From Paenibacillus peoriae (lineage in GTDB: Bacteria > Bacillota > Bacilli > Paenibacillales > Paenibacillaceae): 64,000 nucleotides of DNA. The stretch is taken from NCBI RefSeq assembly GCF_022531965.1, contig NZ_CP092831.1, positions 1,888,001 through 1,952,000 of the forward strand, written 5' to 3'. Below, piece by piece: positions 5,242 to 35,165 of the stretch. Position 1 is the stretch's first letter; each line of letters opens with the position of its first letter. The notes below the pieces were generated by a model. The model saw nothing but the letters and a program-made list of their open reading frames with translations, had not been told where the DNA came from and ran no database searches. A program made the translations under genes and the position numbers.

Positions 5242-5916
5242 TTACAACTTCACTAACTTTTCGCGATGGATGTAAACCGTCTTAAAGCCGGTTTTAATGA
5301 CCTTTTCTTTGACAAGCTCCTGAAGAGCAGCTGTTACAGCCTCACGGGTGGCCCCGACCAGATTCGCAATTTCTTGATGAGAGAGAGGGAAATTGATTTT
5401 GCAATACTCATCACGGCTTTGGAGGGCGAACTGATCGGACAATTTCAGAAGAATATACAAAATTTTATCCTGTAAATTTCCCAAAGCTAAATGCTGGGCC
5501 AGACTGCTCATTCCTGAAATTCGGTCACTTAACACCTTGATCATGTTCATCATGAACCTGGGATGTTCTATTAAAAAATGCTCGAATCGGTCTTTGTCCA
5601 TACGGCAGATATCGCATTCTTCTATCGTTTCTATATACATCTCCCTTGTTCCTAGTGAAATCATATCCATTTCACCAAATACATTTCCCTCGCGGAGGAT
5701 ATCCAAAGTAAATTGCTTCCCGTCAGCATTTAGCTTATATAGACGTACTTTGCCCTTTTTCACAAAATAAAGTCCCTCGGAAAAGGTCTCTGGAGTTTGT
5801 ATAAAGTTTTTTTTCGGTATAGTCGTAATGGAGGTCATTTGATCCATTTCAATTAAATCTTCTAATGAGAGACTATGAAGCAAATTAAATTGGGACAAAT
5901 ATTGAATGCTATTCAT
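5242..5916 (-). CDS. Crp/Fnr-family transcription regulator
   Basis: A 224-residue regulator. An N-terminal cyclic-nucleotide-binding-like beta-barrel (GLYFVKKGKVRLYKL, GNVFGEMDM) and a long dimer helix lead to a C-terminal winged helix (SHQEIANLVGATREAVTAAL). The N-terminal cysteine cluster of oxygen-sensing FNR is absent, so an Fe-S sensor is unlikely. The arginine that contacts cAMP is not obvious either, so the signal is unknown. AAAGGAG precedes ATG 5916; the upstream extension to 5955 has no ribosome site. Confidence 0.85.
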   Translation of the reverse strand: MNSIQYLSQFNLLHSLSLEDLIEMDQMTSITTIPKKNFIQTPETFSEGLYFVKKGKVRLYKLNADGKQFTLDILREGNVFGEMDMISLGTREMYIETIEECDICRMDKDRFEHFLIEHPRFMMNMIKVLSDRISGMSSLAQHLALGNLQDKILYILLKLSDQFALQSRDEYCKINFPLSHQEIANLVGATREAVTAALQELVKEKVIKTGFKTVYIHREKLVKL

Positions 5917-6122
5917 ATGTTCTCCTTTTCGGTTGCACAGGGTATACAGAATCATAATACAATTATAGCTTCTATAAGGTATTTTGACCTCTATTACTCA
6001 CTTGTTTGCGATAGAGTGAATAATGAATTTTGGGGAATCTGTTGGATTTATATAAAAGAGAGGTTGGTATAAAATAGATATACATGATTAATAGTAGATA
6101 CATAAAGAGTGAGGTAATAACC

Positions 6123-33697: not shown

Positions 33698-34216
33698 ATG
33701 AATGAACTTGAATTCTCTCAAGTATATGCGATTATGGAGGCTTCTTTTCCCGAAACGGAATGCAGGACATTCGAGTCACAGAGGGCTCTTCTTCATCATC
33801 CGTGTTATCGTTTACTTACCAAAAAAGACGAACAAGGGCAAACAATAGCTTTTTTGGCGGGCTGGGAGTTTACAGATTTTCGGTTTGTAGAGCATATTGC
33901 CGTAGATTCGGCTATACGAGGTGGCGGGTTAGGTAAAGAGCTTATGAGCAAGTTTATTTTACAGTTCGGTAAACCGGTAGTGCTGGAGGTTGAGCCACCA
34001 GTGGATGAATGGACTCGGAGAAGAATTGGTTTTTATGAACGTTTGGGGTTTCATCTGAACCATTTTGACTATGTACAGCCCCCTTTAAGAGAAGGACGGG
34101 CTGATCTGCGGCTTCAAATTATGAGCTATCCAGGTGCGTTGGCTGAACAGGATTTTGCTCCGTGTAAAGAGATTTTATATACCGAGGTCTATGGGTTAAA
34201 TAAGAAGACTATATAG
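33698..34216 (+). CDS. GNAT-family N-acetyltransferase
   Basis: A 172-residue GNAT. The acetyl-CoA motif A is visible as VEHIAVDSAIRGGGLGKELM (pyrophosphate loop RGGGLGK), and motif B as RRIGFYERLGFHLN. The substrate is unknown. AGAGGAG lies upstream. It converges on the second GNAT gene, which is unrelated in sequence beyond the fold. Confidence 0.85.
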   Translation: MNELEFSQVYAIMEASFPETECRTFESQRALLHHPCYRLLTKKDEQGQTIAFLAGWEFTDFRFVEHIAVDSAIRGGGLGKELMSKFILQFGKPVVLEVEPPVDEWTRRRIGFYERLGFHLNHFDYVQPPLREGRADLRLQIMSYPGALAEQDFAPCKEILYTEVYGLNKKTI

Positions 34217-34230
34217 CTAAAGGTACTTCA

Positions 34231-34671
34231 TTATCGTTCATGTTTTGTCCATACCATTACAAATTCTTTCTCGTCAGTTTCGGCATCCACAGATTCTGCT
34301 TGAACGGTAAATCCATTTTTAGTATAAAAGTTAAATGCTTTCGTGTTTGACTGATACACCTTTAATTGAATCTCATCATGTTGCTCCTTAACCCAATCTA
34401 ATAGTAACTTGCCGTAGCCCTTTCTTTGAGAATCAACACGTATAAATAGAGCCGCCAAGTATCCATCCAACATGGAAACGAAGCCGCCGATGCTATGATC
34501 ATCTTGTATGATAACGTAGTTTTGAGCGAGGGGAAGGTACCTGTTCTCCATCTCAGTAGCTTGTGATGCCCAATACTGCGGAGCAATAAAATGGTGGGCT
34601 TCTACGGAAGCATCCAGCCAGATGGCTGCCAGTTCCTTGAACTCTTCTACATTCGCGGGTCTAATCGACAT
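34231..34671 (-). CDS. GNAT-family N-acetyltransferase behind a structured leader
   Basis: A 146-residue GNAT with motif A reading ALFIRVDSQRKGYGKLLLDWV and motif B FNFYTKNGFTV. It resembles small PhnO/YiaC-type acetyltransferases whose substrates range from amines to antibiotics. The start ATG 34671 (MSIRPANVEEF) has AGAGG upstream. About 70 bases upstream on the same strand lies a strong terminator preceded by a highly structured RNA with short leader frames. The gene may therefore be controlled by attenuation, unless the RNA is an independent transcript. Confidence 0.82.
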   Translation of the reverse strand: MSIRPANVEEFKELAAIWLDASVEAHHFIAPQYWASQATEMENRYLPLAQNYVIIQDDHSIGGFVSMLDGYLAALFIRVDSQRKGYGKLLLDWVKEQHDEIQLKVYQSNTKAFNFYTKNGFTVQAESVDAETDEKEFVMVWTKHER

Positions 34672-34741
34672 CGTAACGCCTCTTTTCACAGTATGTAATC
34701 CTATTCCGATAGTCAAGTATGAGAAAGATGTTGTTGAAATA

Positions 34742-34902
34742 AAAAAGACCGTCCGAGGACGGTCTTTCTACCCGTGGCGCTTAATTAAAGCTTTGATCCG
34801 TATCCCGCGCCTCCGTTAACTCTGTAAATTAGAGAATAACGGACCGGGTAAGGGATACGTTCAACATGTGATTATTGATGTTGACGCACCTCCTTTCCTG
34901 AT
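34742..34902 (-). ncRNA. structured RNA or attenuator leader ending in a terminator
   Basis: Transcribed leftward. TGGTAAAAT (34917-34909) is an extended -10, so the RNA would start near 34902. In order: AGGAGG (34894-34889), a hairpin TCAACAT/ATGTTGA (34884-34861), an 8-bp stem CGTATCCC/GGGATACG (34859-34852 with 34806-34799) and, inside it, a 7-bp stem TCCGTTA/TAACGGA (34843-34837 with 34818-34812). Two segments inside the stem can also pair outside it: TACCCG (34850-34845) with CGGGTA (34774-34769), and GGCGC (34811-34807) with GCGCC (34780-34776). That gives a pseudoknot or an alternative fold. The terminator AAAGACCGTC/GACGGTCTTT plus T run closes it at 34767-34742. It matches no riboswitch class I can recall. 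Confidence 0.6.
34829..34867 (-). other. possible leader peptide frame, 12 codons
   Basis: ATG 34867 to TAA 34829 reads MLNVSLTRSVIL. The AGGAGG is 21 bases upstream, too far unless the intervening hairpin folds out. A shorter alternative, GTG-CGT-CAA-CAT-CAA-TAA (34889-34872), overlaps the AGGAGG but has AGGA upstream. Translation of either is speculative. Confidence 0.3.
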
Positions 34903-35064
34903 GAACCCATTTTACCATATCTGGTTTGTGATATCCAGTGATTTTCTTATATTTACGGAAATGATTCATAGGAAATATATTATAAAAATAGCTTGATTTT
35001 ATGTTCTATGGGAGATATAATCTTAACTACCGTGATTGAAAATATCGGTGTGAGTACATAATAT

Positions 35065-35149
<85 letters not shown>

Positions 35150-35165
35150 TCATGCCTAACATTTA

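Follow-up and report, generated by a model that had tools for sequence, protein, structure and literature searches.

In Paenibacillus peoriae, a structured RNA of ~160 nt precedes an acetyltransferase gene, which raises the question of whether it is a control element of that gene or a gene in its own right. Positions below are those of the window, the whole stretch of 64,000 nt that was analysed.

Layout and predicted fold of the RNA

The RNA is read from the minus strand, from a predicted 5′ end near 34902 to a terminator at 34741. Its outline is as follows.

34909..34937, minus strand: promoter, TGGATA-17-TAAAAT, with a -35-like TGGATA and a TG before the second hexamer (extended -10)
34741..34902, minus strand: RNA, ~160 nt, from the predicted start near 34902 to the end of the terminator
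34741..34767, minus strand: intrinsic terminator, a hairpin in the fold followed by a T run, recurring in homologs

The promoter ends at 34909, which predicts a transcription start near 34902. The site alone is weak evidence, since the region is rich in promoter-like sites (13 in 2.5 kb vs 8.0 expected). The terminator hairpin is evident from the fold and by eye, and was not listed by the terminator pattern scan. Judged from sequence only, the RNA has a promoter and a terminator of its own, as dual-function small RNAs do.

Folding of 34735-34910 (minus strand) gave -62.9 kcal/mol, compared with a mean of -41.6 kcal/mol (s.d. 4.0) for shuffled sequences (z = -5.4), and none of 200 shuffles reached the native value. 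Read from 34902, the RNA comprises a Shine-Dalgarno (SD) sequence, P1 (whose 3′ arm holds an ATG), CGTATCCC, TACCCG, P3, GGCGC, GGGATACG, GCGCC, CGGGTA and the terminator, and these segments form the following helices.

34861..34884, minus strand: P1 hairpin, 34878-34884 with 34861-34867, containing the ATG
34799..34859, minus strand: P2, CGTATCCC (34852-34859) with GGGATACG (34799-34806), competing with an SD-masking hairpin
34769..34850, minus strand: pseudoknot helix (PK), TACCCG (34845-34850) with CGGGTA (34769-34774)
34812..34843, minus strand: P3 hairpin, 34837-34843 with 34812-34818, with covariation above a simulated null
34776..34811, minus strand: P4, GGCGC (34807-34811) with GCGCC (34776-34780), invariant in 43/43 aligned homologs

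A first-pass annotation had listed an SD, a 5′ hairpin, nested perfect stems of 8 and 7 bp, out-of-stem complements of 6 and 5 nt, and a terminator 70 nt before the acetyltransferase gene. Each is present in the sequence: the 8-bp stem is CGTATCCC/GGGATACG, the 7-bp stem is TCCGTTA/TAACGGA, the complements are TACCCG/CGGGTA and GGCGC/GCGCC, and the T run ends at 34741. The ATG of the acetyltransferase (GNAT) gene is at 34671, 70 nt beyond the RNA, and its protein matches Pfam acetyltransferase models.

Distribution and database matches

A DNA search of 149 genomes recovered the RNA in 70 of the 75 genomes of the same genus, a conservation that makes it more than a chance structure. Some match was found in 74/149 genomes; those in G090 and G119 cover the terminator only and that in G005 is truncated, while G080 and G106 are true distant members. 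Two covariance models were built, R1 from alignment A1 (26 sequences) and R2 from alignment A4 (43 sequences). The covariance search in Paenibacillaceae that the first-pass annotation had proposed returned homologs in 105 of 295 family genomes and 6 of 19 genera (R1); many genomes of the family had no match, under filters strict enough that weak members could be missed. R2 matched 137 of 392 sampled genomes of the order, in 7 of 49 genera and nearly always once per genome; one genome from another family of the order, G805, has 9% contamination. In the class sample, R1 matched 31/398 genomes (29 within the family, two weak), and in the phylum sample R2 matched 6/398, all within the family, leaving no credible match outside the order in either sample of 398. 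Two matches outside the order were rejected, one for its low score and chance-like alignment (G625) and one for its low score (G465). Second matches within one genome (R1: G189 and G323; R2: G025, G046 and G189) scored 20-22 bits and were taken as chance. A pattern scan gave 95 stretches, and the 80 listed came from Paenibacillus, Saccharibacillus, Cohnella and one record named Bacillus sp. FJAT-27264.

At the gathering threshold, no Rfam 15 family fell on the RNA in the window, where the one match was a tRNA elsewhere; 12 homologous loci gave one tRNA and two glycine-riboswitch matches, none on the RNA. The best sub-threshold Rfam match around the RNA scored 18.8 bits. The earlier description, a structured RNA with a terminator that matches no known riboswitch class, is thus borne out. 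A search of the largely open-access literature found no description of the RNA. In P. riograndensis, 27 small RNAs were reported, nearly all of unknown function (PMC5670726), and the RNA may be one of them. It appears to be a small RNA, highly conserved in Paenibacillus and its relatives, that has so far gone undescribed.

Gene neighbourhood

To compare loci, the surrounding open frames were grouped into clusters, and for several clusters Pfam was used to name a single member. A GNAT gene lies downstream of the RNA in 12/49 loci. In one Paenibacillus group the RNA is flanked upstream by polyphosphate kinase and downstream by a GH53 glycosidase. The RNA and trmD converge in group g13, where rimM, khpA and, at some loci, rpsP come after trmD and L19 lies on the opposite side of the RNA. 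Nine loci of the Saccharibacillus type carry a chemotaxis receptor upstream. A recognisable core was found in 73 of 75 loci (the others being a terminator-only match, L047, and a truncated allele, L145), and the commonest neighbour cluster among the 73 has 21 members (khpA 21, trmD 20), so no downstream gene is conserved. The neighbours differ between clades while the promoter, core and terminator are mostly kept: the extended -10, SD and terminator are present in most rows of all neighbourhood groups, and in other genera the terminator hairpin and T run are kept with changed stems. Because the RNA is not tied to GNAT and its neighbours change between clades, we regard it as a stand-alone gene. 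No conserved antiterminator shares a strand with the terminator, the conserved helices all lying 5′ of the terminator stem. By these comparisons, the RNA is probably not a control element of the adjacent acetyltransferase gene; the earlier suggestion of an attenuator or leader finds no support on either count, and the free small RNA offered as another option gains support.

Several loci have features of their own. A tRNA-Leu (CAG) lies just upstream of the RNA promoter in the window (35064-35151, plus strand), divergent from it; a link to this tRNA was considered and rejected, as the upstream tRNA was not found in every row (e.g. L003 and L010). Two convergent GNAT-family genes occupy 33698-34671, and the one on the minus strand follows the RNA. 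At L110-L124 and similar loci, which belong to one Paenibacillus group, the RNA sits between trmD and the L19 gene of the ribosomal rpsP-khpA-rimM-trmD region, in the opposite orientation. Locus L104 has two adjacent glycine riboswitch aptamers (5815-6031) ~2.7 kb from the homolog. Six loci (L097, L098, L099, L100, L101 and L105) have an extra hairpin between core and terminator. At L007, the terminator has an interrupted T run, and directly after its hairpin comes a transposase-type gene (Pfam DUF772; frame 1757-2374). The terminator end is matched a second time ~1.6 kb further on, an arrangement that would fit the entry of an insertion sequence into the terminator.

Covariation of the helices

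The A1 alignment pairs in 97.2% of cells, with 8 pairs changed on both sides compared with 3.0 in shuffles. In A4, P3 varies widely and P4 never, so that covariation is uninformative for P4. Tested over all pairs against 100 simulated alignments (the null having a named model and no fitted rate parameters), the P3 pair 64-96 stands out alone (E <0.01), followed by P3 pair 61-99 (E 0.28); P2 pair 47-110 reached E 12 and the PK pairs E 44 and 86, all behind the unpaired column pairs 18-99 and 19-99 (E 2.3). A test on 120 sequences, restricted to 31 structure pairs with a null simulated from the alignment, gave <0.001, 0.001 and 0.012 for P3 pairs 61-86, 58-89 and 62-85, 0.036 for P2 pair 44-100, and 0.5 or more for PK, whose counts are lowered by partial misalignment of the 3′ end (cores were trimmed).

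P2 has one double-sided change, U-A to C-G, in 11/43 A4 rows and 15/120 sequences, and PK has C-G to U-A in 2/43 and G-C to A-U in 4/43 A4 rows. In 17/43 A4 rows P1 contains a mismatch, and pairing there moves to a shifted, bulged register. The compensatory changes that the first-pass annotation had proposed looking for are therefore strong in P3 by sequence comparison and weaker elsewhere, being marginal in P2 and only suggestive in the pseudoknot, where they are not significant alone.

An extended SD and a conserved micro-ORF stop

The 5′ part of the RNA contains the elements of a small, putatively translated frame.

34887..34897, minus strand: extended SD GAAAGGAGGTG, 11 nt, in 42/43 A4 rows (GGAAGGAGGTG in one row)
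34829..34867, minus strand: micro-ORF MLNVSLTRSVIL, ATG to TAA, 12 codons, with its stop within the P3 hairpin
34877..34879, minus strand: AUC, candidate start, 9 nt after GGAGG and in frame with the ATG

Situated at the extreme 5′ end of the RNA, the SD sequence GAAAGGAGGTG is taken here to be complementary to the 3′ end of 16S rRNA over 11 nt, and over 12 nt in some homologs. It is absent from L036 and L145 and differs by one base in L096. These three loci are left out by the pattern that defines the core (GAAAGGAGGTG, ATG[CT]TGA and the 3′ core), which reduced 254 loci to 118 distinct cores; of the three, L036 and L096 have the micro-ORF stop.

All 118 distinct cores have an in-frame stop 33, 36 or 39 nt past the ATG (11-13 codons), by means of TAA in 97, TGA in 19 and TAG in 2. 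In the other two frames, stops that begin within nt 27-41 are found in only 10/118 and 31/118 cores, a difference that makes selection on the micro-ORF frame likely. Among 19 mutually dissimilar segments (<60% identity), the stop is present in 19, compared with 4 and 4 for the other frames; shuffling gave a mean chance of 0.30 per segment, or ~4e-11 for all 19. The same stop is found in 70/71 rows of alignment A2, the remaining row being a spurious second match in L128. The short frame proposed earlier is supported, its stop being kept in every distinct core amid otherwise variable sequence. A second proposed frame, encoding MRQHQ, is poorly supported: the GTG that would open it is part of the SD, and 4 of 38 distinct loops lack its stop.

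The peptide follows the pattern M-L-[NSI]-[VA]-[SF]-[LFP]-T-[RQL]-x and is unconstrained at its C-terminus. Residues vary at several positions, and several of the changes that covary in the RNA alter amino acids; since such substitutions occur where the RNA covaries, the extent of the frame rather than the peptide seems to be selected, and the peptide itself is probably not the product. The sensing of an antibiotic or amino acid, also suggested at first, finds no specific support: the frame has no run of a single codon, and its C-terminal residues vary.

The distance from GGAGG to the ATG is 21 nt in 115/118 cores, unusually far for normal use. A 3-nt frame-keeping insertion in the P1 loop at L107 fits the sole core with a distance of 24 nt. 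At the usual SD spacing, 118 of 120 distinct homologs have AUU, AUC or AUA and never AUG; the other two have TTT and TTC, which fits a 1-nt deletion just before, present in L099 and L105. The third base of this AUH codon has undergone at least 8 parsimony changes, none to G, too few to prove that G is avoided, and no bias at third codon positions was found in the P1 loop. In Staphylococcus aureus, a 2026 study reports conserved AUU/AUA starts paired with extended SDs (infC, cvfC1 and ccpN; PMC13009471), so by analogy an AUH codon is a plausible start of the micro-ORF.

Two predicted, mutually exclusive pairings of one strand

In the minimum-energy fold, the SD is paired.

34850..34895, minus strand: SD-masking alternative hairpin, 17 bp, 34878-34895 with 34850-34867

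This hairpin consists of P1 extended by ten pairs, and uses the strand that otherwise makes P2 and the start of PK. The shared strand (nt 42-51) can thus pair either with the SD or with the 3′ strand of P2, the latter in a fold that includes PK, P3 and P4, which supports the earlier idea of a pseudoknot or alternate fold. In A1, 99.3% of masking-hairpin cells pair with no two-sided change, as the SD strand is invariant anyway. Each of the 10 extension pairs is kept in 41-43 of the 43 A4 rows. Substitutions in the shared strand are transitions only, and they break a P2 pair in 1/43 rows and two extension pairs once each. The predicted gains in the window are similar, at -13.2 kcal/mol for SD masking vs -13.0 kcal/mol for P2. 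In the 43 homologs masking gains range from -5.7 to -21.4 kcal/mol and P2 gains from -8.1 to -14.9 kcal/mol, and the two are unbalanced in some; the largest masking values are due in part to a P1 register that was scored poorly. With both sets of pairs kept, the predicted masking and anti-masking helices exclude each other as those of a riboswitch do.

Truncated alleles and complements in the genome

Two alleles, L036 (2396-2537) and L145 (3030-3154), have lost the promoter-proximal half (the SD and the 5′ arm of P1) and kept PK, P3, P4 and the terminator. Their 3′ domain may work alone, or the loss may be recent damage.

Searches for complements in the RNA's own genome used two strands, the nearly invariant C-rich strand TCCCTTACCCG and the P4 loop, and yielded no clear trans target. 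The C-rich strand had 31 complements vs 31 in a reversed control, counts that include the RNA itself. The P4 loop had 50 vs 11, again including the RNA, and the two counts are not comparable as the compositions differ. The C-rich strand has six two-mismatch complements, of which five fall within open frames spanning at least 100 codons. The remaining one, L261, coincides with the end of an opposite frame and precedes a 187-codon frame by 45 nt. For both strands together, eight of nine two-mismatch sites are inside open frames, with L261 not clearly so.

A proposed ribosome-gated small RNA and its alternatives

The best explanation, to which we give about an even chance, is a stand-alone, bistable small RNA gated by the ribosome. 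It builds on what the homologs share, namely conservation with no fixed neighbour, an SD with a micro-ORF stop and two pairings, and would add to these ribosome gating and an output in trans. Transcribed from its own sigma-A-type promoter and ended by its own terminator, the RNA would have its fold set by the ribosome. The masking hairpin would form first as the RNA emerges; a 30S subunit capturing the SD would lead to translation of the micro-ORF, and the ribosome would clear the switching strands and leave at the P3 stop. Because the ribosome would leave there, the 3′ half would go unread and could adopt PK, P4 and P2 with the SD accessible; without a ribosome, the SD would be locked away. 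The RNA would thereby report translation-initiation capacity, and could act in trans through the 3′ pseudoknot domain or the nearly invariant C-rich strand. Gating is consistent with the conserved P3 stop, the retention of both exclusive pairings and the 3′ half kept by the truncated alleles; against it, 21 nt from SD to ATG is too far, PK is only suggestive and the truncated alleles could be damaged. A more specific proposal, which we consider distinctly unlikely, is a free sensor of translation initiation, in which the extended SD holds a 30S subunit over the never-AUG AUU/AUC/AUA, the IF3 state or free 30S decides whether the micro-ORF is used, and the RNA then retains the outcome in one of its two folds, of which the pseudoknot form acts in trans. 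No regulatory RNA is known to us to work as such a sensor with no cis target.

Other readings account for parts of the same evidence. The classical geometry of SD masking against P2 and the very conserved 3′ domain would suit an orphan aptamer or translational riboswitch, in which recognition of a small molecule or protein by the 3′ pseudoknot frees or hides the micro-ORF SD, the output being a tiny peptide or its translation. We think this unlikely, as the SD is followed by just an 11-13-codon frame and no regulated gene, the micro-ORF crosses three strands of the would-be aptamer, Rfam has no match and several peptide residues vary. An ordinary antisense RNA, with TCCCTTACCCG as a C-rich seed for mRNA SD regions and an incidental micro-ORF, seems unlikely to the same degree: C-rich seed strands occur in several Gram-positive sRNAs and this one is nearly invariant, but the conserved stop does not look incidental, complements are no commoner than in the reversed control and five of six near-complements fall inside open frames. 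An RNA that instead uses its complement to the anti-SD (11 nt, 12 in some) to bind the 3′ end of 16S rRNA, serving as a decoy or regulating ribosomes, would explain an SD at the very 5′ end that is far stronger than a 12-codon frame needs. We hold this to be highly doubtful for a single chromosomal copy with no sign of the abundance that a decoy needs, and it leaves the micro-ORF stop and P2/PK unexplained. A cis leader or attenuator, in which micro-ORF stalling or a ligand decides between termination and read-through into GNAT, is very improbable indeed. A terminator 70 nt before GNAT, a leader-like short frame and the 12/49 loci with GNAT downstream speak for it, whereas other clades have GH53 glycosidase, convergent trmD or other genes there, and no conserved antiterminator strand overlaps the terminator stem.

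Comparison with known systems

The RNA is a compact gene, mostly single copy in Paenibacillus, Saccharibacillus, Cohnella and relatives, with no match in Rfam 15. To our knowledge, an extended SD, a micro-ORF conserved in stop position and competing SD-masking and pseudoknotted folds are rarely found together in a free RNA. If ribosome gating holds, the RNA would offer a small genetic system for how cells sense translation initiation with no cis-regulated gene.

Like dual-function bacterial small RNAs, it is a short independent gene with its own promoter, terminator, SD and small conserved ORF; unlike them, it has a frame that runs into the structured core and encodes a peptide with a variable C-terminus. 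As in translational riboswitches that sequester the SD, one strand pairs with the SD or with a 3′ strand, but here there is no regulated downstream gene, the micro-ORF lies inside the switching strands and Rfam has no match. With ribosome-mediated attenuators that carry leader peptides it shares a strong SD, an 11-13-codon frame, overlapping stems and a terminator, whereas its terminator lies outside the switch and no gene is fixed downstream. The extended SD with a well-spaced, never-AUG AUU/AUC/AUA resembles the starts of S. aureus infC, cvfC1 and ccpN, which begin real proteins (PMC13009471), in contrast with the putative start of a ~16-codon frame in this RNA.
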